Positions 22,858 through 37,369 of a stretch of DNA of 44,799 bases are shown here, piece after piece. Made by a program: the position numbers and the translations under genes. Under the pieces are notes generated by a model. That model was not told the DNA's origin and searched no databases. It worked only from the letters and a program-made list of their open reading frames with translations. Each line of letters begins with the position of its first letter. Within the stretch, counting starts at the first letter, position 1. Origin of the DNA: Acidobacteriota bacterium (GTDB taxonomy: Bacteria; Acidobacteriota; Terriglobia; Acidiferrales; UBA7541); the NCBI GenBank assembly GCA_003224085.1, contig QHYK01000081.1, forward strand, positions 1 through 44,799, given 5' to 3'.

Positions 22858-23991
22858 TCAGTCTTCGGTCTCCTGGGTAACGATGTGCACGTCGACGGCA
22901 GGAGACTCGCGCAGGAAGCGGTGCACGGCAGACAGATAGAGGTATTTCCGCCAATCGCGAACAGGTGCGCGGCCAAAGATGACCTGGGTAATGTGTTTCG
23001 AACGCACAAAATCGGCCACTGCGTCGGCGACACTCTTCCCTTTCAGGCGAACGACCTCTGCGCCCAAGCTTTCTGCGAAGCGCAAGTTGGCCGCAAGTCC
23101 AGTCGGGTTGTCCTCCCGGTGGATAGGGCCGAATTCGCGGTCGACATGAACGACGTACAGCTCTGCATCCATGCGGCGCGCCATTCTGGCGCCGCGAGCG
23201 ATGAGGTATTGTCCAGCAGGATTCGCGGAGATGCACACGGCCATGCGCTCGCGCACTCCCCAATTCTTTCGAATGTCCTGCGCCTCCATGTAAGATTCGA
23301 GGCTGCGGTCCACCTGCTCGGCGACTTGGCGCAACGCGAGCTCGCGGAGAGCGATTAAGTTGCCGCGACGAAAAAAATTTTTCAGCGAGCGCTCGACTTT
23401 TTCCGTGCTGTAGACGTCGCCACGCTTCATGCGCGCGTACAGAGCCTCCGGGGTGAGGTCAACCATGACGGTTTCCGAGGCGGTGAGCGGTAACCAGTCA
23501 GGAACGGTTTCGCGCACGGTGATTCCTGTAATGGAGCGCACCACTGGCGCGAGGCTCTCGATGTGCTGGATGTTCAGCGTGGAGAGTACGTCGATATTGG
23601 CGGCTAGAATTTCTTGAACGTCTTCGTAGCGCTTGCGGTGTTTGCTGCCGGGGATGTTGGTGTGGGCGAGTTCGTCGACTAACACGACACCGGGGTGGCG
23701 CGCGAGAATCGCGTCAACGTCCATTTCCTCGAAAATCGTGCCTTTGTATTCGATTTTCTTGCGCGGGACGATTTCCAATTGTTGCGCAAGCTCTTCGATG
23801 CCCTGGCGGCCATGCGATTCCACCACGCCGATGACCACGTCTTCGCCGCGGCTGCGGCGGCGTAAGGCTTCGCTGAGCATGCTGAAGGTTTTTCCGACGC
23901 CGGGAGCGTAGCCGAGGAAAAGCTTGAAGACGCCGCGCGTTTTTTGCGGCGGGGAGACAACCTCGAGCCATTCTTCAGGTTTTTTTTGCAA
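22858..23991 (-). CDS. kdpD: KdpD N-terminal sensor protein (KdpD and USP domains only)
   Basis: The 377-residue protein matches the cytoplasmic N-terminal half of the potassium sensor KdpD: a P-loop domain (Walker A GYAPGVGKT at 27-35, Walker B LVDELAH at 104-110, followed by TNIPGSKHRKRYEDV) and a universal-stress-protein domain (about 250-372). It ends exactly where KdpD would enter its four membrane segments. The remaining half is encoded by the divergent gene starting at 24036; 377 plus 492 residues make 869, close to a complete KdpD. It starts at TTG 23991 with GGTAGGT upstream. Stand-alone KdpD N-domains are known from cyanobacteria and Deinococcus. It probably senses nucleotide or potassium state and acts on the kinase in trans. 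Confidence 0.92.
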   Translation of the reverse strand: MQKKPEEWLEVVSPPQKTRGVFKLFLGYAPGVGKTFSMLSEALRRRSRGEDVVIGVVESHGRQGIEELAQQLEIVPRKKIEYKGTIFEEMDVDAILARHPGVVLVDELAHTNIPGSKHRKRYEDVQEILAANIDVLSTLNIQHIESLAPVVRSITGITVRETVPDWLPLTASETVMVDLTPEALYARMKRGDVYSTEKVERSLKNFFRRGNLIALRELALRQVAEQVDRSLESYMEAQDIRKNWGVRERMAVCISANPAGQYLIARGARMARRMDAELYVVHVDREFGPIHREDNPTGLAANLRFAESLGAEVVRLKGKSVADAVADFVRSKHITQVIFGRAPVRDWRKYLYLSAVHRFLRESPAVDVHIVTQETED

Positions 23992-24023
23992 GGCTATTTA
24001 CCTACCCGATTGGCGGCCTGGGC

Positions 24024-24029
24024 TAGAAT
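24024..24029 (+). promoter_or_regulatory. -10 element next to the start of the kdp histidine kinase gene
   Basis: TAGAAT (five of six consensus bases) ends six bases before the ATG at 24036. The two divergent kdpD halves are only 44 bp apart, and no Shine-Dalgarno sequence precedes this ATG, so a leaderless transcript is plausible. Confidence 0.45.
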
Positions 24030-24035
24030 GTACCC

Positions 24036-25514
24036 ATGCAGAGATTTCTCGGCGGACGCGTCATGGGAGTGGCGGTGTCCCTGGTCGTGGTCGCGGGCAT
24101 TGTTCTTCTTTATCGTCACGTTTTAAAAGTAAACCAAACCACGGTCGCATTGTCGTTTCTCCTGGCCATTTTAGCAGTTTCGGCAGTGTGGGGAATCGTG
24201 GTTTCGGCTTTCATGTCTGTGGCGGCCATGCTGGCGTTCAACTATTACTTTCTTCCTCCGGTGGGCACGTTGACCATTGCGGATCCGCAAAATTGGGTGG
24301 CGTTGTTCGCGTTTCTGGTCACTTCGATTACCGGGAGCCAGCTTTCTTCGCGCATTCGAAAAGAGGCTGACGAAGCGCACCAGCGACGGCGCGAAGTGGA
24401 GCGTTTGTACAGCTTCAGCAGGCAATTATTGGGAGAAGGCAACGTCATTCAATTGATGAACGCGATTCCCGACTATATCGTGGAGAGCTTCGAGGCAGGC
24501 GCAGCTGAGCTTTTTCTTCCGCAGAAAGACAAGTTTTATCGCTCTGGATTCGGCGCCGCGCATCTCGATGAGAAGAAGATGAAATTGGCCTACGTGAACG
24601 ACGAGCAAACGATAGACGCGAAGCATGCCGAGTATTTCATTCCAGTGCGGCTGGGAGTGCGTCCGATAGCGAGCTTGGGAATTTCCGGAGCACAGCTTTC
24701 ACGACAGACCGTGGAAGCGCTGGGCAGGCTCGTGGCGATTGCCATCGAAAGAGCGCGGGCCGTGGAACAACTCGGGCAAACCGAGGCGGAGAGACAAGGC
24801 GAGCGGCTGAAATCCGCGCTGCTCGATTCCATCACGCATGACTTTCGAACGCCATTGACTTCGATGAAAGCAGCAGTCACCGGCCTTCTAACGTCATCGA
24901 ACTTGGGTTCCGCGCAGGCGCGTGAGCTTCTAACCATCATCAATGAAGAGTGCGACCGGCTGAATCATCTCGTCGAGGAGGCGGGAGAAATGGCCAAGCT
25001 GGAGGCAGGTGAGGTGCAGTTGGACCTGGTTCCAGCGCCGGTCGAGGAGATCATTGATGCCGCCCTGGGGCATTGCAAGAGCGCGCTGGCCGGGCGGCGC
25101 GTGAACGTGCGAGTCGCTGATGGACTGCCGCCGGTGCGAGCTGATTTGGAACGTGCAAAAGAGGCGCTTGTGCAGCTGATCGAGAATGCGAATCTTTATT
25201 CGCCCAAAGAGGAGCCCATTACGATTACTGCGGAACTTACTGGCGAGGCCGTGACCATCAGCGTCGCGGACCGCGGCCCGGGGATTGACGATTTTGAACA
25301 GACAATGATTTTTGACAAATTCTACCGGGGAAAGGATCAGCGGTATCTTGTTCGCGGCACCGGAATGGGCTTGCCAATCGCTAAGGCGATTATTGAAGCG
25401 CAGAAGGGCAGCATTAGCGTCACAAGCCAGTTGGGGCATGGCTCGGTGTTTTCGTTTACGCTGCCTGTGGAGCATCTTCAACCCGTGGACTATGCCAGGA
25501 AAGATGCTCCATGA
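24036..25514 (+). CDS. KdpD-type sensor histidine kinase lacking the N-terminal sensor domains
   Basis: The 492-residue kinase equals the C-terminal half of KdpD. It has DUF4118 membrane segments (about 11-26, 36-58, 58-75 and 86-102), a basic stretch after the last segment (SSRIRKE), a GAF-like domain (about 120-245), a HisKA domain with His268 in SITHDFRTP and an HATPase domain (N box LIENANLYSP, DRGPGID, GTGMGLPIAK). It should phosphorylate KdpE, whose gene overlaps its stop by four bases. Because the P-loop/USP half is encoded separately and divergently, signal input must come in trans or be lost. Length of the membrane and kinase part matches other KdpD proteins. Confidence 0.92.
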   Translation: MQRFLGGRVMGVAVSLVVVAGIVLLYRHVLKVNQTTVALSFLLAILAVSAVWGIVVSAFMSVAAMLAFNYYFLPPVGTLTIADPQNWVALFAFLVTSITGSQLSSRIRKEADEAHQRRREVERLYSFSRQLLGEGNVIQLMNAIPDYIVESFEAGAAELFLPQKDKFYRSGFGAAHLDEKKMKLAYVNDEQTIDAKHAEYFIPVRLGVRPIASLGISGAQLSRQTVEALGRLVAIAIERARAVEQLGQTEAERQGERLKSALLDSITHDFRTPLTSMKAAVTGLLTSSNLGSAQARELLTIINEECDRLNHLVEEAGEMAKLEAGEVQLDLVPAPVEEIIDAALGHCKSALAGRRVNVRVADGLPPVRADLERAKEALVQLIENANLYSPKEEPITITAELTGEAVTISVADRGPGIDDFEQTMIFDKFYRGKDQRYLVRGTGMGLPIAKAIIEAQKGSISVTSQLGHGSVFSFTLPVEHLQPVDYARKDAP

Positions 25515-31108: not shown

Positions 31109-31921
31109 ATGAAATTCAAGAAGATCGAACCCCAGGAATTGGAATGTTCACCGACGGCCATGCGGCCGTTCGGCTGCATGGAATTGTGGGCCGGCAATGA
31201 GCGTGCGCACCGCTCTCTGGAACTCGCCGGGCTCGAGAGCGATGTGATCGCGGTGCCCGCCGGGGGCGCCAAGGGCGGCGACTTGTCGGCTGTTTTTTCT
31301 TGCAGCGACAACATTGCGCGGGTGGTTTTGGCGGATTGCGTGGGGCACGGCTACACAGCGAGCGGCGTGGCGCGGCATGTGCATCACTTATTGCACGAGT
31401 TCCAAGACATCCGGGACACGGCGGGCTTGCTCGCGGCGCTCAACGATGCGTTCACGCTTTCGAACGACAATTCAGGCGAGTCCCTGCGTCTGACCACCGT
31501 CGTGACCGGTACGTTCGACGGAACTACCGGCGAATTCAATTTTGCTTATGCCGCGCATCCGCGGTTGCTGCTCCGGCGCGCGCAACAGACGCGATTTTTC
31601 GAGCTGGGAGAAGGTTTGGAAGGATTTCCCCTCGGGTTCATCACCGGCGAAACCTATAACCAGCAGAGCGTGCGGCTAAACCAGGGAGACATGATCCTGG
31701 CGTTCTCGGACGGGGCGACTGAAGTTCGCTCGCCGTCGGGGGAGCAACTCACGTTCCAAGGATTCTTGCAACTAGCCGACAAAACGTTAAACGCGCTGCC
31801 GAAGCCCTTCTCTCTGCATGATTTTTCTGAGGCATTACTCCAGGGCGTTCACCATTTTCGAGGCGCTGAGGGAGAGTTGGAAGACGATGTCACGTTGTTG
31901 ACGCTGCGGCGGATTTCATGA
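31109..31921 (+). CDS. PP2C-type serine phosphatase of the SpoIIE/RsbU family
   Basis: The 270-residue protein is a bare SpoIIE-type phosphatase domain without a sensor domain. Metal-binding and catalytic signatures are VVLADCVGHGYTASGVA (in place of the usual GDVSGHG), LAFSDGATEVR and LEDDVTLLTL at the C-terminus. Such enzymes dephosphorylate phospho-serine on STAS proteins of partner-switching systems. Its gene converges on an operon encoding just such a STAS protein and its kinase, so a functional link is likely. ATG 31109 is taken as start; a TTG at 31076 is in frame. The lack of a sensor domain means activity is set by expression or by partners. Confidence 0.85.
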   Translation: MKFKKIEPQELECSPTAMRPFGCMELWAGNERAHRSLELAGLESDVIAVPAGGAKGGDLSAVFSCSDNIARVVLADCVGHGYTASGVARHVHHLLHEFQDIRDTAGLLAALNDAFTLSNDNSGESLRLTTVVTGTFDGTTGEFNFAYAAHPRLLLRRAQQTRFFELGEGLEGFPLGFITGETYNQQSVRLNQGDMILAFSDGATEVRSPSGEQLTFQGFLQLADKTLNALPKPFSLHDFSEALLQGVHHFRGAEGELEDDVTLLTLRRIS

Positions 31922-31970
31922 AGCTTTCGTGTTCGAGCACGGCTACGCGAGGCCAGCACAACTTCGCGTG

Positions 31971-32660
31971 TCACTTGAAAGGATGCTCCGCAAAATATTG
32001 CTCGAGACTCGCGAGCATCTCTTCTGAGGCCAATTGAACATTGCGGTTCAGAGCGGCAACGATAGCGGGCACATCTTTTCCAGCCACGGACTCGTCATGC
32101 GAGTAATAGCGCGTCCAGACGGTCACACCCGATTTTAGGTCGCGCATTTCCAGTTCAAAAGTCAGTCTCGCGACCATCGTGCTTGCTGAAACCTCTTTGA
32201 AGTCATAGAGGTGGCCGCGGATCAGGAAGTCACCGCTGGCATTGCTGCGCTCCGCGTAAACCGACTTGTAGTGGCCCGAGGATCGCAGGCGTCGCAACAA
32301 AACCATTTGAATCATCTCCGTCGGAGGTTCCGCCCAACGCTGATATTCGTATGTTCCCATCTGCTCGCCGCCGCCGCTGTAAACGATGCGGTCTTCACGA
32401 TACAGATGCGAAGCGGATAGCGGACCGAAGAGAAGCGTGGCAGCCACCGGGTCCGCCCCTGGTGCCGCGGGTCGTTCACCAGGAACAGTCAACTGGTAAT
32501 ACTTGCTGGGGCGAGCGGCCCCACAGCCAGAGAGGGTTGTGGCGAGCATAAAACTCATTATCCAGGCAGGCCAACAAGCCTTCTCGGAACTACTTGAGCC
32601 GCGCCTCCGCTTCCCTTTCGTGTCTGTCAATCCCTCCAAGGTTTCTTCCTCGCGGGTCAT
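31971..32660 (-). CDS. ABC-type transport auxiliary lipoprotein (PqiC-like) of the Mla/MCE operon
   Basis: The 229-residue lipoprotein has a lipobox LSGC with Cys46 after a hydrophobic stretch. A long charged n-region of about 30 residues suggests that initiation may also occur at Met35 (32558). The mature part fits ABC-type transport auxiliary proteins (PqiC/YmbA-like): YYQLTVPG at the start, RIVYSGGGEQMGTYEYQRWAEPP, and alternating beta strands. In MCE systems these lipoproteins sit at the outer membrane and help lipid transfer. Its ATG overlaps the mlaD-like stop by four bases. It is the last gene of the operon. Confidence 0.85.
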   Translation of the reverse strand: MTREEETLEGLTDTKGKRRRGSSSSEKACWPAWIMSFMLATTLSGCGAARPSKYYQLTVPGERPAAPGADPVAATLLFGPLSASHLYREDRIVYSGGGEQMGTYEYQRWAEPPTEMIQMVLLRRLRSSGHYKSVYAERSNASGDFLIRGHLYDFKEVSASTMVARLTFELEMRDLKSGVTVWTRYYSHDESVAGKDVPAIVAALNRNVQLASEEMLASLEQYFAEHPFK

Positions 32661-33625
32661 TTGTACTCTCCGGGTTTGTGCTCCGGCGGGCTACTAGACC
32701 GAATCAGAGTGTAAGGCCGGCGCTTGATAACGTCTGTGAATTCCCTCAAGTTCTCCGAGACGTGGCGAAAGTTTTCCAGCAGTTCATCAATGTTCTCGGC
32801 ATTCACGTCCAGTGTCTGGTCGAGCTTTCCCGTCAATTCCGTTAAGCCCCCGAGAGAGCGACGCAGCTCAAGGACCGCCTTGCGCAAGTCTTCACGGTTT
32901 TCTCCGATCAGGGAATCCACGTGATTCAGCGCCTCATTTGCCTCCGCTGAAGTCTTTCTCAAATCCTCAATCAAGGGAGCGAATTTCTGGCTGGCGGTGT
33001 TCAGGTTCTGGACCGCGGATTTTACGTTCGCGCGGTTTTCCGAAATCATTCCGTGGGCGCCTGATAGGGTTTCGGCGAGGTTGGCGCGGTTGCGGTCATT
33101 CATCAAGTCGTTCATGCGGTTCACCGTCAGCTTCAAGTCGTTTGCGCGATCATTGAGAGTTTTCAGAAGCTCCTGCGCCTGCGGGGCGATTTCATTGATT
33201 TTTGCGGTGAGCGCGTTGAAGTCAATGTAAGGTTCGGAGGGCAGAGTCGCGCCGGGACCTGCCAACTTGGCTTTGTCGCTTCCTGGAATAATTTCCAAAT
33301 GATTGTCCCCCAGCGGACTCAGACTCATGATTTTCACGCGGCTGTCGGTCTTCACGGGGAGATCGGCCTGCACGCTGAAAGTAATCTCGATGCGCGATGG
33401 ATCCTTTGAATCGAGTTGCAGTTTCTCGACGCGTCCGACCTTGGGACCGCCCGCATAGCGCACGGTCGAGCCCGGCTCCAAGCCGCCCGCAAATGGAAAA
33501 TATGCGCGGAAGGTCGAGGCGGAGCCACCGAAAGCGCCGCTCAACGTAAATACCGTCGTAACCAAAATTCCTGCGGCTGCTAGCACAAACGCGCCCACGA
33601 TAGCCTGCTCTTTCTTCGATTGCAT
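32657..33625 (-). CDS. mlaD: MCE/MlaD domain substrate-binding protein
   Basis: The 322-residue protein has an N-terminal membrane anchor (about 10-32), one MCE domain (about 38-118, including YAGGPKVGRVEKLQL and PLGDNHLEIIPG) and a long helical C-terminal region (about 140-300, heptad-rich, with many N and L residues), then a short tail. MlaD forms hexameric rings that bind and hand over phospholipids between the inner-membrane complex and the periplasm. The long helical tail, much longer than in E. coli MlaD, resembles MCE proteins that build a needle or tunnel across the periplasm. The start overlaps the mlaF stop by one base (TGATG). Confidence 0.92.
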   Translation of the reverse strand: MQSKKEQAIVGAFVLAAAGILVTTVFTLSGAFGGSASTFRAYFPFAGGLEPGSTVRYAGGPKVGRVEKLQLDSKDPSRIEITFSVQADLPVKTDSRVKIMSLSPLGDNHLEIIPGSDKAKLAGPGATLPSEPYIDFNALTAKINEIAPQAQELLKTLNDRANDLKLTVNRMNDLMNDRNRANLAETLSGAHGMISENRANVKSAVQNLNTASQKFAPLIEDLRKTSAEANEALNHVDSLIGENREDLRKAVLELRRSLGGLTELTGKLDQTLDVNAENIDELLENFRHVSENLREFTDVIKRRPYTLIRSSSPPEHKPGEYK

Positions 33626-34476
33626 CAGACACCTCCCCTTTGGGTCATCGAACGGCCAGCCGCACGATGATCTTCGGTAAGCATTTGCAGGTAATCTGCT
33701 TCCTGCAAAACTTCCGGCTCCGCGATGCGGTCAAGAAATTGCCTTACACGCGGATGCGCGCTCGACCGCATTTCTTCCCTCGAACCACTGGCAACAATAT
33801 TTCCTTTTTCAATCAGCACCATACGGTCGGCGATCAAGAAGGCGCTCGCCAACTCGTGGGTCACCACGACGATGGTCATGTGGAAGGCTTTCTTCAGCTC
33901 AAGGATCAATTCATCGACGCCAGCGGCGATAATGGGGTCGAGCCCGGCGGAAGGTTCATCAAAAAAGAGGATTTCCGGATCCATGGCCATAGCACGAGCC
34001 ACCGCCGCGCGCTTCTTCATCCCGCCGCTCAGTTGCGATGGCAGGTAGTTTTCAAAACCCGCCAGACCCACCTGATCCAGCTTCAACCGCACGATAATCT
34101 CAATCGTCGGTTCCTCGAGCCTGGTATGCTCGCGGAGCGGAAGCGCCACATTCTCTCCGACGGTCATCGACCCGAACAACGCACCACCCTGAAAGGACAT
34201 TCCGATTCGTTTGCGGATTGCATTCATTTCTGCGTCGGAGATTACAGCTAGATTCTTGCCTTTGAGCCAGATTTCTCCCGAACTGGGCCGCTCCAGACCT
34301 ACCAAGGTGCGCAATAGCGTGCTCTTTCCTGAACCGGAGCCTCCCAAGATCACGAGCGTTTCGCCGCGCATCACTTCGAAGGTGAGCCCATGGAGAATCT
34401 CCCGCTCACCGTAATTCACGCGGAGATCGCGCAGCGAAATCATCGCTTCCAGTTTTGAATCGTCCCTCGGTTCCAT
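33625..34476 (-). CDS. mlaF: Mla-type lipid ABC transporter ATPase
   Basis: The 283-residue ATPase has Walker A GGSGSGKS (45-52), Q loop Gln96, signature LSGGMKKR (149-156), Walker B LFFDEPSAGLD (Asp173, Glu174) and the switch histidine in VVVTHE. The GGM-K/Q-KR signature and GLDP after Walker B are typical of MlaF/Ttg2A. In E. coli MlaF is bound and stabilised by the STAS protein MlaB; here an RsbV-like STAS gene lies two genes upstream. The start is 14 bases after the mlaE stop. Confidence 0.95.
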   Translation of the reverse strand: MEPRDDSKLEAMISLRDLRVNYGEREILHGLTFEVMRGETLVILGGSGSGKSTLLRTLVGLERPSSGEIWLKGKNLAVISDAEMNAIRKRIGMSFQGGALFGSMTVGENVALPLREHTRLEEPTIEIIVRLKLDQVGLAGFENYLPSQLSGGMKKRAAVARAMAMDPEILFFDEPSAGLDPIIAAGVDELILELKKAFHMTIVVVTHELASAFLIADRMVLIEKGNIVASGSREEMRSSAHPRVRQFLDRIAEPEVLQEADYLQMLTEDHRAAGRSMTQRGGV

Positions 34477-34490
34477 CGGTTTGCTTCTTC

Positions 34491-35324
34491 CTAGCGCTGG
34501 CCCAAGAAAAAGAATAATGTCGTAAAGACCAGGTCGACCAAAATCACCAGAAATATGGAGACAACCACCGCTCGCGTAGTGGAGCGCCCAACTTCCTCGG
34601 CCCCTACGCCAGTCGTTAGACCTTCATGACATCCCACGGCGGTAATGGCAATCCCAAAAACGACGCTCTTGATTAATCCCGTCACGATGTCTCGCAGGAA
34701 AAGCGTATCGAGCGAAGCGCGAATGTAGCGGCCGAAGAAAAAACCTGCCTGCGTCACGCCAAAGAGCGCTCCGCCCAGAATTCCCATGGAGTTCGCCCAG
34801 ATGGTCAGGCAGGGGAGCATGATGGTCATGGCCAAGAACTTTGGCGCGACCAGAAAATCGACCGGATGAATCGCCATCGTCTCCAGCGCGTCAATTTCCT
34901 CGGTGACCCTCATGGTGCCGATTTCCGCGGCGAAGGCGGAGCCTGAGCGCCCGATGACCACAATCGCGGTAATCAACGGCCCGAGTTCGCGTGTCATGGA
35001 AATGGCAACGGCGTTTGCGACAAAAGTGATGGCGCCAAATTTGCGTAATTCGTATGCGCTTTGCAGCGCCAGAATCAATCCGATAAAAAAAGTGATCAGC
35101 GAAAGGATGGGCAGAGCCCGCACACCAACTTGCATCGCCTGAGAAATTGTTTGTTGCAAGCGGATCGGCTTTCCCTTGAACGGCGCGATAAATGTGTAAT
35201 AAGCGGCGCGCGCGCCCAGCGAGGTCAGCGATCCAAGATAAGCGAGGCCGTCGGTGACCGATCCACCAATTTGTGCCGCAAATTCCACGTTGCCCCTCGA
35301 GGAGACTGGGCGCCTAAAGACCAT
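34491..35324 (-). CDS. mlaE: Mla-type lipid ABC transporter permease
   Basis: The 277-residue permease has the MlaE family layout: an amphipathic N-terminus, then about five membrane segments and the strongly conserved block VAISMTRELGPLITAIVVIGRSG followed by ALETMAIHPVDFLVAPK and GCHEGL. It binds MlaF and forms the inner-membrane core of the lipid transporter. The ATG lies three bases after the stop of the STAS gene, so both should be made in fixed ratio. Confidence 0.95.
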   Translation of the reverse strand: MVFRRPVSSRGNVEFAAQIGGSVTDGLAYLGSLTSLGARAAYYTFIAPFKGKPIRLQQTISQAMQVGVRALPILSLITFFIGLILALQSAYELRKFGAITFVANAVAISMTRELGPLITAIVVIGRSGSAFAAEIGTMRVTEEIDALETMAIHPVDFLVAPKFLAMTIMLPCLTIWANSMGILGGALFGVTQAGFFFGRYIRASLDTLFLRDIVTGLIKSVVFGIAITAVGCHEGLTTGVGAEEVGRSTTRAVVVSIFLVILVDLVFTTLFFFLGQR

Positions 35325-35327
35325 GCC

Positions 35328-35660
35328 TCAGGGCGATACGGCTTGCTCCTCATTCTCGTAAATTTCGAAAATCTTCACCAGCTTGGAAAGCTGGAGAACT
35401 TCCCTAACCGTCGTGTTCAAACCATACAGAATCAGCCGGGCTTTCAGGTCCCGCGATACTTTCAGCCCCTCCACAAGAGACGCAACGCCCGAACTATCCA
35501 TGTAGCGAACGCCTTTCAAGTTCAGGATCACCCGGGGCACGCGCGCCTCGCGCAGTTCGTGCAAAAGGGCTTTTCGTAGTTCCGGTGACGAAGCGAGATC
35601 CACGTCTCCACGGACATCAAAAATGGTCATATTGTCCAGGCGACGCGCGGAAATTTCCAC
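35328..35660 (-). CDS. STAS domain protein (RsbV/SpoIIAA-like, possible MlaB counterpart)
   Basis: The 110-residue single-domain STAS protein has the full anti-anti-sigma pattern: DVRGDVDLASSPELR near the N-terminus and the phosphorylation loop YMDSSGVASL, where Ser56 matches SpoIIAA Ser58. A GTG start follows GGAG eight bases upstream. The gene sits between an RsbW-like kinase gene (12 bp) and mlaE (3 bp). In E. coli the STAS protein MlaB is a subunit of the MlaFEDB transporter, so this protein may serve the transporter, a sigma-factor switch, or both. A phosphorylatable serine and a kinase neighbour make phospho-control of the transporter a testable idea. Confidence 0.9.
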   Translation of the reverse strand: MEISARRLDNMTIFDVRGDVDLASSPELRKALLHELREARVPRVILNLKGVRYMDSSGVASLVEGLKVSRDLKARLILYGLNTTVREVLQLSKLVKIFEIYENEEQAVSP

Positions 35661-35672
35661 TATTCTTTCTCC

Positions 35673-36134
35673 TCAGACACCCTTCTCGGGCTTCGGTACA
35701 TCAAGAAGTTTTATCAGGCGCAGGTGGTTCTTTCCGAATTTGCGGCGGAATTCTACCGCGTCCATGCATTCGTTGATGAAATGCAATCCCAAGCCGCCCG
35801 GCCGGACTTCTTCGAGGGGGCGTCCACACCATTTCGCATGGTCAATCTTCTTGCCGCGGTCTTCGAGCACAATTTCCAGAGCTTTTCTTTGATTACCGTC
35901 TCGCGGAACCTCAATCCGGCGGAACAATGCGCGGATCGGGTGTCCCTGTTCTCCGCCATAGGCGTGTTTGATGATGTTGGTGAGAGCCTCATCGACCGCC
36001 AACACCACTGCCCGGCATTCCGCGCTGGAAAACCCCAACGTCTCGGCGAGCTGGCCCAAGGCATGGCGCACCACACAGAGCATTTCGGGATTGCTCTGCA
36101 ATTCCAAGTTCAGCAAAGGGCTGCTTCGGCTCAT
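35673..36134 (-). CDS. RsbW/SpoIIAB-like serine kinase (anti-sigma factor family)
   Basis: The 153-residue protein is a GHKL ATPase of the RsbW type: N box AVDEALTNIIKHAYG (Glu49, Asn53, His57), G1 box LEDRGKKID and G2 box GGLGLHFINECMDAVEF. RsbW proteins bind a sigma factor or phosphorylate a STAS partner. No sigma-factor gene is present in the window, whereas the STAS gene follows after 12 bp and the Mla genes after that. The target is therefore more likely the STAS protein at 35328-35660. It is the first gene of the six-gene operon. Confidence 0.88.
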   Translation of the reverse strand: MSRSSPLLNLELQSNPEMLCVVRHALGQLAETLGFSSAECRAVVLAVDEALTNIIKHAYGGEQGHPIRALFRRIEVPRDGNQRKALEIVLEDRGKKIDHAKWCGRPLEEVRPGGLGLHFINECMDAVEFRRKFGKNHLRLIKLLDVPKPEKGV

Positions 36135-36529
36135 TGGAGGCTCTCGATTGACACCAGGTTTATAGTTCCCTGGACACGCAGTTTGCAGCAGCTTCCGGGA
36201 CAGTCAGTACCAACGATGATACACGGAATCTCGGCGCACGCTGGCTCAAAAAGGTAAACCCAGATGCTTGCTTATAAGATGCCGGAGCAGTCATAGCGAG
36301 TGCAACACTCGGTCATGTCAAGGTCCCGAATCTTACGTTCTCCAGCGCCGCACATGATAGACTTGCCTGACCATTTCACCATCGGCAAGGCATGCGGTAT
36401 CTGCACTAATGTGCGCGGCTGACGAATTTCCCGAATTGCTTCCGACTTTCACTGTGATTGGAGGCCGCCCGTTACAAGATCCGGACGGCTGACTAGCTTA
36501 AGCGACAGAATCCAACGGCGGAATGGAAA
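36135..36529. other. Intergenic region between divergent rsbW-mla operon and DUF202 gene
   Basis: About 395 bp without a gene. The minus strand carries TTGACA next to a 15-base palindrome (described separately), which is probably the operon promoter. The remainder, 36330-36520, has no distinctive signal. Confidence 0.45.
36290..36321 (-). promoter_or_regulatory. Candidate promoter and operator of the rsbW-mla operon
   Basis: On the minus strand a perfect TTGACA (36321-36316) is followed by the palindrome CGAGTG-TTG-CACTCG (36311-36297). The -10 is poor: CGCTAT at 17 bp or TATGAC at 20 bp. A dyad between -35 and -10 is the usual site for a MerR-type activator or a repressor, so regulation here is likely. 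The leader would be about 150 bases. Confidence 0.4.
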
Positions 36530-37369
36530 ATGGATACGTCGGCGGAAAAGAAGCAGAGAGTGGAGCTTGGCGACTATTTGGCCGCCGAGCGAACGTTTCT
36601 TGCGTGGGTTCGCACCGGGCTGGCGCTGATGGGATTTGGTTTCGTGGTTGCGCGGTTCGGTCTCTTCCTGCAGCAGCTCCGGCTTGCCGACCAAGTTCCC
36701 TCAAACCTGTCTTATGGGATCTCGTTGTGGTTCGGGACGACACTCATCGGTGTGGGAGTTGCCGTGAATCTCTGCGCCGCTTTGCGCCACGTGCGTTTGG
36801 TTCGTCAACTCGACGCGGGCGAACCTGAGCTTTTGGGTTCTTTGACCTTCCCTGTCGCCACCGCGTTGTTTCTGGTTTTCGTTGGATTGGCGATGGCGAT
36901 TTATCTCGTATCTGTGCGCGGTTCGGCAAATCCTCCGACGGGAAGCACCATGGAGACAACCATGACACCTGGAATGATGCCCGCAAGCAACAAGGGAATC
37001 ATCGACAAACGGAGCAATCACTCGGTCGAGGCCACCGTGGAAAAGCTCAAGAACATTCTGCAATCTAAGGGCGTCACCTTATTTGCGCTGGTCGACCACA
37101 GTGGAGAGGCCGAAAAAGTGGGAATGAAAATGCCGCCGACCAAGCTGCTCATCTTCGGCAGCCCCAAAGCGGGAACGCCACTTATGTTGGCCGCCCCCAG
37201 CGTTGCCATTGATCTGCCTCTGAAAATCCTAGTTTCGGAAGATGACCAGGGAGAAGTCTGGGTTTCCTACAATAGTCCCGACTACTTGAAGGGGCGACAT
37301 GGTCTGCCTCCAGAATTGCTGGCTAACATTGCCGTCGTAGACACCTTGGCGTCCATGGCTTCCGAGTAG
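36530..37369 (+). CDS. DUF202-DUF302 fusion membrane protein
   Basis: The 279-residue protein joins a YidH/DUF202 membrane domain (about 12-130; LGDYLAAERTFLAWVRTGLA, then segments near 30-50, 64-84 and 107-128) to a cytoplasmic or periplasmic DUF302 domain (about 156-279; NHSVEATVEKLKNILQSKGVTLFA, GSPKAGTPLM, DLPLKILVSEDDQGEVWVSY). The two are normally separate proteins of unknown function. DUF302 proteins often occur near redox or metal genes. The Gly/Thr/Met-rich linker (about 131-155) joins them. ATG 36530 is chosen because the DUF202 motif starts soon after it. Function not known. Confidence 0.85.
   Translation: MDTSAEKKQRVELGDYLAAERTFLAWVRTGLALMGFGFVVARFGLFLQQLRLADQVPSNLSYGISLWFGTTLIGVGVAVNLCAALRHVRLVRQLDAGEPELLGSLTFPVATALFLVFVGLAMAIYLVSVRGSANPPTGSTMETTMTPGMMPASNKGIIDKRSNHSVEATVEKLKNILQSKGVTLFALVDHSGEAEKVGMKMPPTKLLIFGSPKAGTPLMLAAPSVAIDLPLKILVSEDDQGEVWVSYNSPDYLKGRHGLPPELLANIAVVDTLASMASE

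Follow-up and report, generated by a model that had tools for sequence, protein, structure and literature searches.

What does a serine kinase of the RsbW/SpoIIAB type control when its gene stands at the head of an operon for a lipid transporter? This question is raised by a stretch of DNA of 44,799 nucleotides from an Acidobacteriota bacterium (contig QHYK01000081.1), referred to here as the window, in which such a kinase and a STAS protein are encoded together with genes of the Mla type, and a SpoIIE-type phosphatase gene lies beside them. We consider it probable that the products of this operon are a lipid ABC transporter of the MCE type and a partner switch dedicated to it, which would act on a STAS subunit equivalent to MlaB. 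The occurrence of a kinase, often with a phosphatase, beside the STAS gene in lipid transporter operons points to phosphorylation as an on-off control of transport. We also favour, with somewhat less assurance, the wider view that in four bacterial phyla an ABC transporter for envelope lipids is gated directly by a kinase-phosphatase switch, with the STAS subunit as the point of attack.

The operon and the proteins it encodes

The operon consists of six genes on the minus strand. The RsbW/SpoIIAB-like serine kinase of 153 aa (35673-36134; Pfam HATPase_c_2, PF13581, 2.9e-22) is followed by a STAS protein of 110 aa with a GTG start, which stands in the place of MlaB (35328-35660; PF01740, 6.5e-21), and by an MlaE-family permease (34491-35324; PF02405, 1e-78). 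These are followed by an MlaF-like ATPase with a C-terminal extension, ADYLQMLTE (33625-34476; ABC_tran, 5.6e-32), an MlaD/MCE protein of the long form, 322 aa (32657-33625; PF02470, 4.7e-16), and a PqiC-like lipoprotein (31971-32660; ABC_trans_aux, PF03886, 1.4e-16) whose lipobox, LSGC, was read by eye. From kinase to lipoprotein the intergenic gaps are 12, 3, 14, -1 and -4 bases. The region 5' of the operon, up to a divergent gene at 36530, is a putative promoter region (36135-36529). The SpoIIE-type PP2C phosphatase, a candidate for dephosphorylation of the STAS protein, is encoded on the plus strand (31109-31921; PF07228, 4.1e-32), and its gene converges on the 3' end of the operon at a distance of 49 bases. 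A preliminary description of this DNA had claimed a tight six-gene operon with these gap values and a convergent SpoIIE-type phosphatase without a sensor domain. We recovered the same coordinates and the same five gaps, found a Pfam match for all seven genes, and observed no Pfam sensor domain in the phosphatase.

An MlaE permease, an MlaF-like ATPase and an MCE-domain protein, the core of an Mla/MCE lipid ABC transporter, are all present as judged by Pfam. The system had been described as a complete Mla transporter; the three core components are indeed there, but the word complete is too strong, since MlaC (PF05494) gave no match in the genome at an E-value of 0.001. The transporter is of the MCE type, MlaEFD plus ABC_trans_aux. 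Three family comparisons remained under their cut-offs: the MlaD protein scored 97.5 bits (7.7e-28) with the MCE family TIGR00996 (cut-off 140.5) and 61.3 bits with TIGR04430, OM_asym_MlaD (cut-off 135), and the ATPase scored 239.7 bits with PRK11831.1 MlaF (441-bit cut-off). The ATPase is about 44% identical to E. coli MlaF over 242 aa, and its C-terminal extension is kept in the relatives. The genome also has a second MlaE (contig 131), with no STAS match in the 16 kb examined; an MlaF-like match in the same stretch is without the C-terminal extension, the link of the two being putative.

The kinase retains E49, N53, D92/G94 and PGGLG(112-116). E49, N53 and PGGLG are invariant, and D92 nearly so, in 59 aligned rows (alignments A3 and A4, which comprise the window protein and 58 rows chosen from the 80 best loci described below), and the protein is by its sequence a serine kinase of the GHKL type in which the motifs for catalysis and ATP binding are intact, as in known partner switches. 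A profile of alignment A1 (20 of the 21 family kinases, L017 being left out) matches RsbW 6m36_A at 2.9e-15, and the AlphaFold2 model of the kinase, with a predicted local distance difference test (pLDDT) score of 87.3, resembles RsbW/SpoIIAB. The STAS protein has the phosphorylatable residue of a partner switch: Ser56, which had been noted in YMDSSGV (D55-S56-S57-G58), is present in the translation (codon 35493-35495, minus strand) and is the predicted phosphorylation site. The phosphatase keeps GGD, ADCVGHG, SDG and DDVT, as read in its translation, which we take to be the metal-site motifs.

Two further loci of the same genome contain related proteins. A paralogue of the window phosphatase, with 55% identity, follows another RsbW-type kinase on contig 142 (L180, 6736-7970), and a separate kinase-STAS pair on contig 23 (L181, 5526-6335) has no Mla gene match in the 12 kb examined.

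Recurrence of the gene set in four phyla

We examined 61 genomes of the family to which the window genome belongs, with a kinase threshold of E 1e-10. The kinase was found in 21 of these, and in all 21 it was followed on the same strand by STAS and then MlaE. MlaE of the window type (at least 62% identity, fragments counted) was present in 39 of the 61 genomes, including every genome with the kinase. Among the remaining 18 loci, the kinase of L163 is cut by the contig end and the contigs of L173 and L177 end too early; in all 15 testable loci MlaE was immediately preceded by STAS, and the 0.9 to 2 kb of upstream DNA examined gave no match to the kinase (the STAS of L162 is partial). The STAS gene is therefore constant and the kinase optional, and because the kinase-less relatives keep STAS-MlaEFD, the STAS protein is a core subunit of the transporter. 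When presence of the kinase is mapped on a tree of 89 MlaE proteins, 3 changes are required, and 13 kinase-less rows form one clade (L173 was labelled kinase-less, though its contig starts within STAS, and L176 was left out, its MlaE being in two pieces). In two kinase-less relatives a second STAS gene was seen just 3' of the lipoprotein gene (L169, 4-276; L170, 304-603).

A scan of a genome collection with 20 kinases gave 503 relatives, and the 80 that scored best were retained as loci; their flanking genes were searched with seven profiles of the module's own parts. This set and the family sample overlap (e.g. L004 / L054). Among these best 80 loci, searched with iterated profiles, STAS lies directly 3' of the kinase in 79 (the exception being L123), and the order kinase-STAS-MlaE is found in 74; in three of the six loci without MlaE the contig ends early (L058, L091 and L093). 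As with MlaB, the gene of the STAS protein accompanies mlaE and is retained where the transporter is (74/80 loci; 15/15 kinase-less relatives). The carriers belong to Acidobacteriota, Planctomycetota (mostly Phycisphaerae), Nitrospirota and Pseudomonadota, the last comprising Rhodospirillaceae, including Magnetospirillum, and Halorhodospira. The preliminary description had proposed a search for a conserved rsbW-STAS-mlaEFD order; the order recurs in the family and across phyla, and the possibility that it is unique to this genome is rejected. Since the arrangement recurs across phyla, it is far beyond chance. Two loci, L071 (titled Betaproteobacteria) and L127 (titled Leptolyngbya), have operons that group with those of Acidobacteriota and Planctomycetota; these are probably misbinned or misnamed, and their phyla were not counted.

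The individual phyla were also searched. Among 289 alphaproteobacterial genomes, 13 matched the fused protein described below (one being the query's own), and 11 of the 13 loci had phosphatase-kinase-STAS, accompanied by MlaE in 10 cases and by MlaF alone in the other. Nitrospirota gave matches in 18 of 148 genomes (two known from the earlier scan), with phosphatase-kinase-STAS-MlaE at all 18 loci. Planctomycetota gave 94 of 246, and the 30 loci examined comprised 26 with kinase-STAS (25 with MlaE), 3 with STAS and then a kinase-phosphatase fusion, and 1 cut short. Kinase-like matches were found in 117 of 297 acidobacterial genomes; the 30 loci examined were the window, L025 (genome G122, MlaE-linked) and 28 without MlaE within about 1.5 kb, and most of the examined acidobacterial matches outside the family are other RsbW-type kinases. 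In a tree of chosen rows, 67 module kinases were split from 17 others by one branch with a weak support of 76.

The phosphatase is linked to the kinase and STAS as well, being fused or adjacent in Nitrospirota and proteobacteria. Fusions and REARRANGEMENTS were observed, with phosphatase and kinase in one reading frame in L092 and L122 (Rhodospirillaceae) and in L110 (Halorhodospira); the Pfam order is GAF-SpoIIE-HATPase in the first two and SpoIIE-HATPase in L110, which is cut at the contig start. Six more alphaproteobacterial loci carry a phosphatase-kinase fusion, two of which (L253 and L254) were Pfam-checked. The reverse domain order, HATPase-GAF-SpoIIE, was found in three planctomycete loci (L250, L251 and L252), and in two of these genomes (L250 and L251) the operon reads MlaE-MlaD-lipoprotein-MlaF-STAS, with the HATPase-GAF-SpoIIE fusion at its end. 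Other phosphatase builds near the module are PAS-SpoIIE (L074, about 1.1 kb upstream), GAF-SpoIIE and FHA-GAF-SpoIIE. The window type of phosphatase lies convergently downstream in 13 of the 80 loci and upstream in one. Within the family sample it was present (at least 64% identity) in 8 of the 61 genomes, each of which belongs to the 21 that have the kinase (one-sided Fisher test, 7e-5, relatedness uncorrected); in two of the eight, G057 and G024, phosphatase and kinase are on different contigs.

Proposed target and mechanism of the switch

The preliminary description had proposed that a phosphorylatable STAS protein takes the MlaB role and is set by kinase and phosphatase. This proposal is supported by the conserved order, by fusions in two domain orders beside STAS-Mla genes, by operons with the same gene set in changed order, and by the outcome of the sigma-factor search given below. 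A hint in the same direction may come from the residue five positions after the Asp of the motif. This is Ala in 65/75 and 57/58 kinase-linked and 15/15 kinase-less STAS rows of the Mla type, as in E. coli MlaB, whereas it is Gly in 29/29 STAS proteins near kinases without Mla genes (short loci), as in SpoIIAA and TM1442; the Ala/Gly contrast is only a hint for an Mla-type STAS because many of the 29 are close relatives.

In E. coli, Thr52 of MlaB is situated close to the middle of its contact surface with MlaF. Binding to MlaF is substantially reduced by the change T52E, and the complex purified in the absence of MlaB contains no MlaF; in switches of the SpoIIAA type, the kinase phosphorylates the residue equivalent to Thr52 (PMC7367683). 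As the MlaF interface and the SpoIIAA-type kinase site centre on the same residue, one STAS face would serve kinase and MlaF in turn. The unphosphorylated STAS protein would bind the helical side of MlaF, stabilise MlaF on MlaE and permit ATPase activity, so that transport is on. The RsbW-like kinase would bind the same face and phosphorylate Ser56, by which the STAS-MlaF contact would be broken, MlaF freed and transport lowered, and the SpoIIE-type phosphatase would strip the phosphate and restore transport, in response to a signal at the GAF, PAS or FHA domain that it carries in many relatives. We infer the phosphorylation of Ser56 by the kinase, the binding of STAS to MlaF and the sign of control, which could be otherwise.

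A number of observations count against this reading and concern the occurrence of the kinase, the fold of the STAS protein, the MlaF extension, the site of phosphorylation and the phosphatase. As regards occurrence, 40 of the 61 family genomes have no kinase match; in L120, L123 and L128 the kinase is followed by no Mla gene, MlaE included, in the DNA examined; the kinase-phosphatase fusion L252 has no Mla gene in the 10 kb examined; and the L017 kinase (genome G057) has a disturbed N-box region next to a STAS and an MlaE that look normal, which is either decay or an assembly error. A chance or hitchhiking neighbourhood with no functional link would agree with the family genomes that have no kinase match, and operon neighbours are sometimes unrelated. 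This explanation is already contradicted by conservation in four phyla, by the fusions and by the same content in changed order, and we regard it as barely credible.

As regards the fold, the AlphaFold2 model of the STAS protein (pLDDT 95.7) matches SpoIIAA (Z 18.9) and RsbV, and P. aeruginosa MlaB less well (Z 13.0). MlaB is described as a minimal STAS fold that lacks the final strand and helix (PMC7367683), and the model has both (strand 99-101, helix 104-108). Because of this C-terminal helix, reportedly absent from MlaB, the STAS protein is not filed in the MlaB family; it is an MlaB equivalent by place. Its NCBIfam matches at E 0.001 are TIGR00377, TIGR02886 and TIGR00815, with no MlaB model among the three (the content of the library was unchecked), and a STAS tree of chosen rows, in which E. 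coli MlaB has an end branch of 7.47, places the protein neither with nor apart from MlaB. The C-terminal extension of MlaF was also considered as proof of STAS binding, and this argument is weakened: a Veillonella model has a shorter MlaF C-terminal extension without MlaB (PMC10665443), given which the extension is non-diagnostic.

A SpoIIAA-like fold would also fit a phospho-switch whose main output lay elsewhere, in an RpoD-like or extracytoplasmic function (ECF) sigma factor or another regulator, with the Mla genes merely co-expressed; RsbW and RsbV classically act on sigma factors. The genome, which is 97% complete, contains three Sigma70_r3 proteins (L134, L135 and L136, in reading frames of 576 to 592 residues), and these RpoD-like factors all exceed the RpoD cut-off but fall far short of the SigBFG cut-off. 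No SigB/F-type sigma factor over the SigBFG cut-off was found in this genome, ECF factors not being surveyed, or in any of 10 other module-bearing genomes. Weaker matches to SigBFG occur in all 10, in part within reading frames 266 to 300 residues long, and other alternative sigma factors are therefore present in them; these matches and the three RpoD-like factors would suit an output elsewhere. The preliminary description had seen no sigma-factor gene in the window and would have counted a cognate factor found elsewhere against its proposal; in this search a sigma-factor target was sought and none passed the cut-off, and the locus is without the SigB/F-family factor of a SigB/SigF regulatory operon. 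An output elsewhere is also opposed by the gene content, which is kept despite changed order, and by the kinase-less relatives: they retain STAS with MlaE, and the STAS protein therefore belongs to the transporter first. We conclude that an output other than the transporter is unlikely.

As regards the site, Ser or Thr occupies the Ser56 position in all 75 STAS rows linked to a kinase and Mla genes (70 Ser and 5 Thr; the rows are 74 of the 80 best loci and L179) and in all 58 further kinase-linked rows, at least four genomes being common to both sets. Ser is found in 15/15 kinase-less relatives too. Conservation of Ser56 is therefore rejected as proof of phosphorylation, and a serine retained without a kinase must have another role as well. 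The same conclusion follows for E. coli, where MlaB T52A allows the complex to assemble but ATPase activity is lost (PMC5016091). Ser57 is Ala in 13 of the 15 kinase-less rows, which are essentially one clade, and an independent-pairs test on Ser57 had 3 pairs, too few to reach significance. In five planctomycete-type loci (L095, L118, L125, L127 and L129) the STAS motif DSSG has become ATPG or ATAG despite the kinase, with Thr remaining at the site.

As regards the phosphatase, that of the window lies outside the operon. A phosphatase was seen in 26 of the 80 loci, with none nearby in 54, including every planctomycete locus, and in 1 of 26 further planctomycete kinase-STAS loci (1.5 kb flanks). 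Where no phosphatase gene is near, one would act from elsewhere, or the kinase would act by binding alone. The loci without a phosphatase nearby, the persistence of Ser56 without a kinase, and the E. coli T52A protein, which points to a catalytic or structural role, would all fit a kinase that only sequesters the STAS protein as an anti-STAS factor, or one that phosphorylates another Mla protein, Ser56 not being the regulated site. This explanation is opposed by the invariance, in 59 rows, of Glu and Asn in the N-box and of the glycine-rich motif, and by the phosphatases that several groups have joined to the kinase or next to it, and it appears to us very improbable.

The direction of control could also be reversed, with the transporter as a sensor: engagement of the STAS protein by MlaF during transport would determine how much of it is free for the kinase, and the kinase would report lipid flux to another pathway. 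The same parts and the same mutually exclusive binding would serve such a scheme, in which the kinase might have additional partners. The GAF, PAS and FHA domains on the phosphatase in relatives oppose it, since sensor-type domains at this place suggest signals that run towards the STAS protein; on this evidence, which covers the flanking genes only through profiles of the module's own parts, we consider a reporting transporter quite improbable. Together, these considerations leave a switch that acts on the transporter through its STAS subunit as the reading we prefer.

Elsewhere in the window, KdpD is split (Pfam) into two divergent genes (22858-25514) near kdp-type genes that were named by eye. 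The sensor part, in which a KdpD domain is combined with Usp, is on the minus strand (22858-23991); the kinase part, DUF4118-HisKA-HATPase, is on the plus strand (24036-25514).

Relation to known systems

The author of the preliminary description knew of no described case of such control. We found no account in the open-licence PMC literature of a partner switch linked to Mla or to another ABC transporter. A survey of MCE operons (PMC5561183) makes no mention of a kinase or phosphatase, a phylogenomic study of Mla (PMC10665443) none of a kinase or phosphorylation, a review of STAS-only proteins (PMC8256260) none of Mla or an ABC transporter, and a study of PPM phosphatase specificity (PMC11418112) none of Mla or a transporter. 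The statement holds in that no such system was found in print, but phosphorylation of MlaB had already been proposed as a hypothesis in 2016 (PMC5016091) and 2020 (PMC7367683), where we found no kinase named. The novelty lies in having candidates for the two enzymes, kinase and phosphatase. The parts are known; their output would be new.

These operons supply a dedicated candidate kinase and phosphatase for MlaB-type subunits, also in Magnetospirillum, and the question of MlaB phosphorylation is therefore directly testable. Magnetospirillum is a genus with cultivated members. If our reading is true, partner switching would control a membrane transporter post-translationally and would permit fast adjustment of envelope lipid transport. 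It would then be, to our knowledge, the first known partner switch with an ABC transporter as its output.

The locus resembles E. coli MlaFEDB in that homologues of MlaE, MlaF and MlaD are encoded alongside one STAS protein, and in having a Ser/Thr at the position of MlaB Thr52, an Ala at the motif-Asp +5 position and the MlaF C-terminal extension. It is unlike MlaFEDB in having a PqiC-like lipoprotein and no MlaC found in the genome, and in the helix at the C-terminus of the STAS model, which is SpoIIAA-like. The window also has a kinase, whereas we found none named for MlaB, where this is given as an open question (PMC7367683).

With RsbW/RsbV/RsbU and SpoIIAB/SpoIIAA/SpoIIE, the module shares the HATPase_c_2 kinase, a STAS protein with DSSG and a SpoIIE-type phosphatase, with matching folds. 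It differs from both in that no SigB/F-type sigma factor was found over the cut-off and its conserved neighbours are transporter genes, in the order kinase-STAS-MlaE.

SypE/SypA of Vibrio fischeri and SiaA/SiaB/SiaC of Pseudomonas aeruginosa have outputs other than a sigma factor; we know of no ABC transporter as the output of either. The mycobacterial protein Rv1364c is linked to SigF. As is proposed for the window, the target of a serine kinase in SypE/SypA and in SiaA/SiaB/SiaC (PDB 6kko) is a STAS protein or one that resembles it. Rv1364c (PDB 3ke6) has phosphatase (RsbU) and kinase (RsbW) domains in one polypeptide, as do the fusions of this module; unlike Rv1364c, these fusions adjoin STAS and Mla genes.

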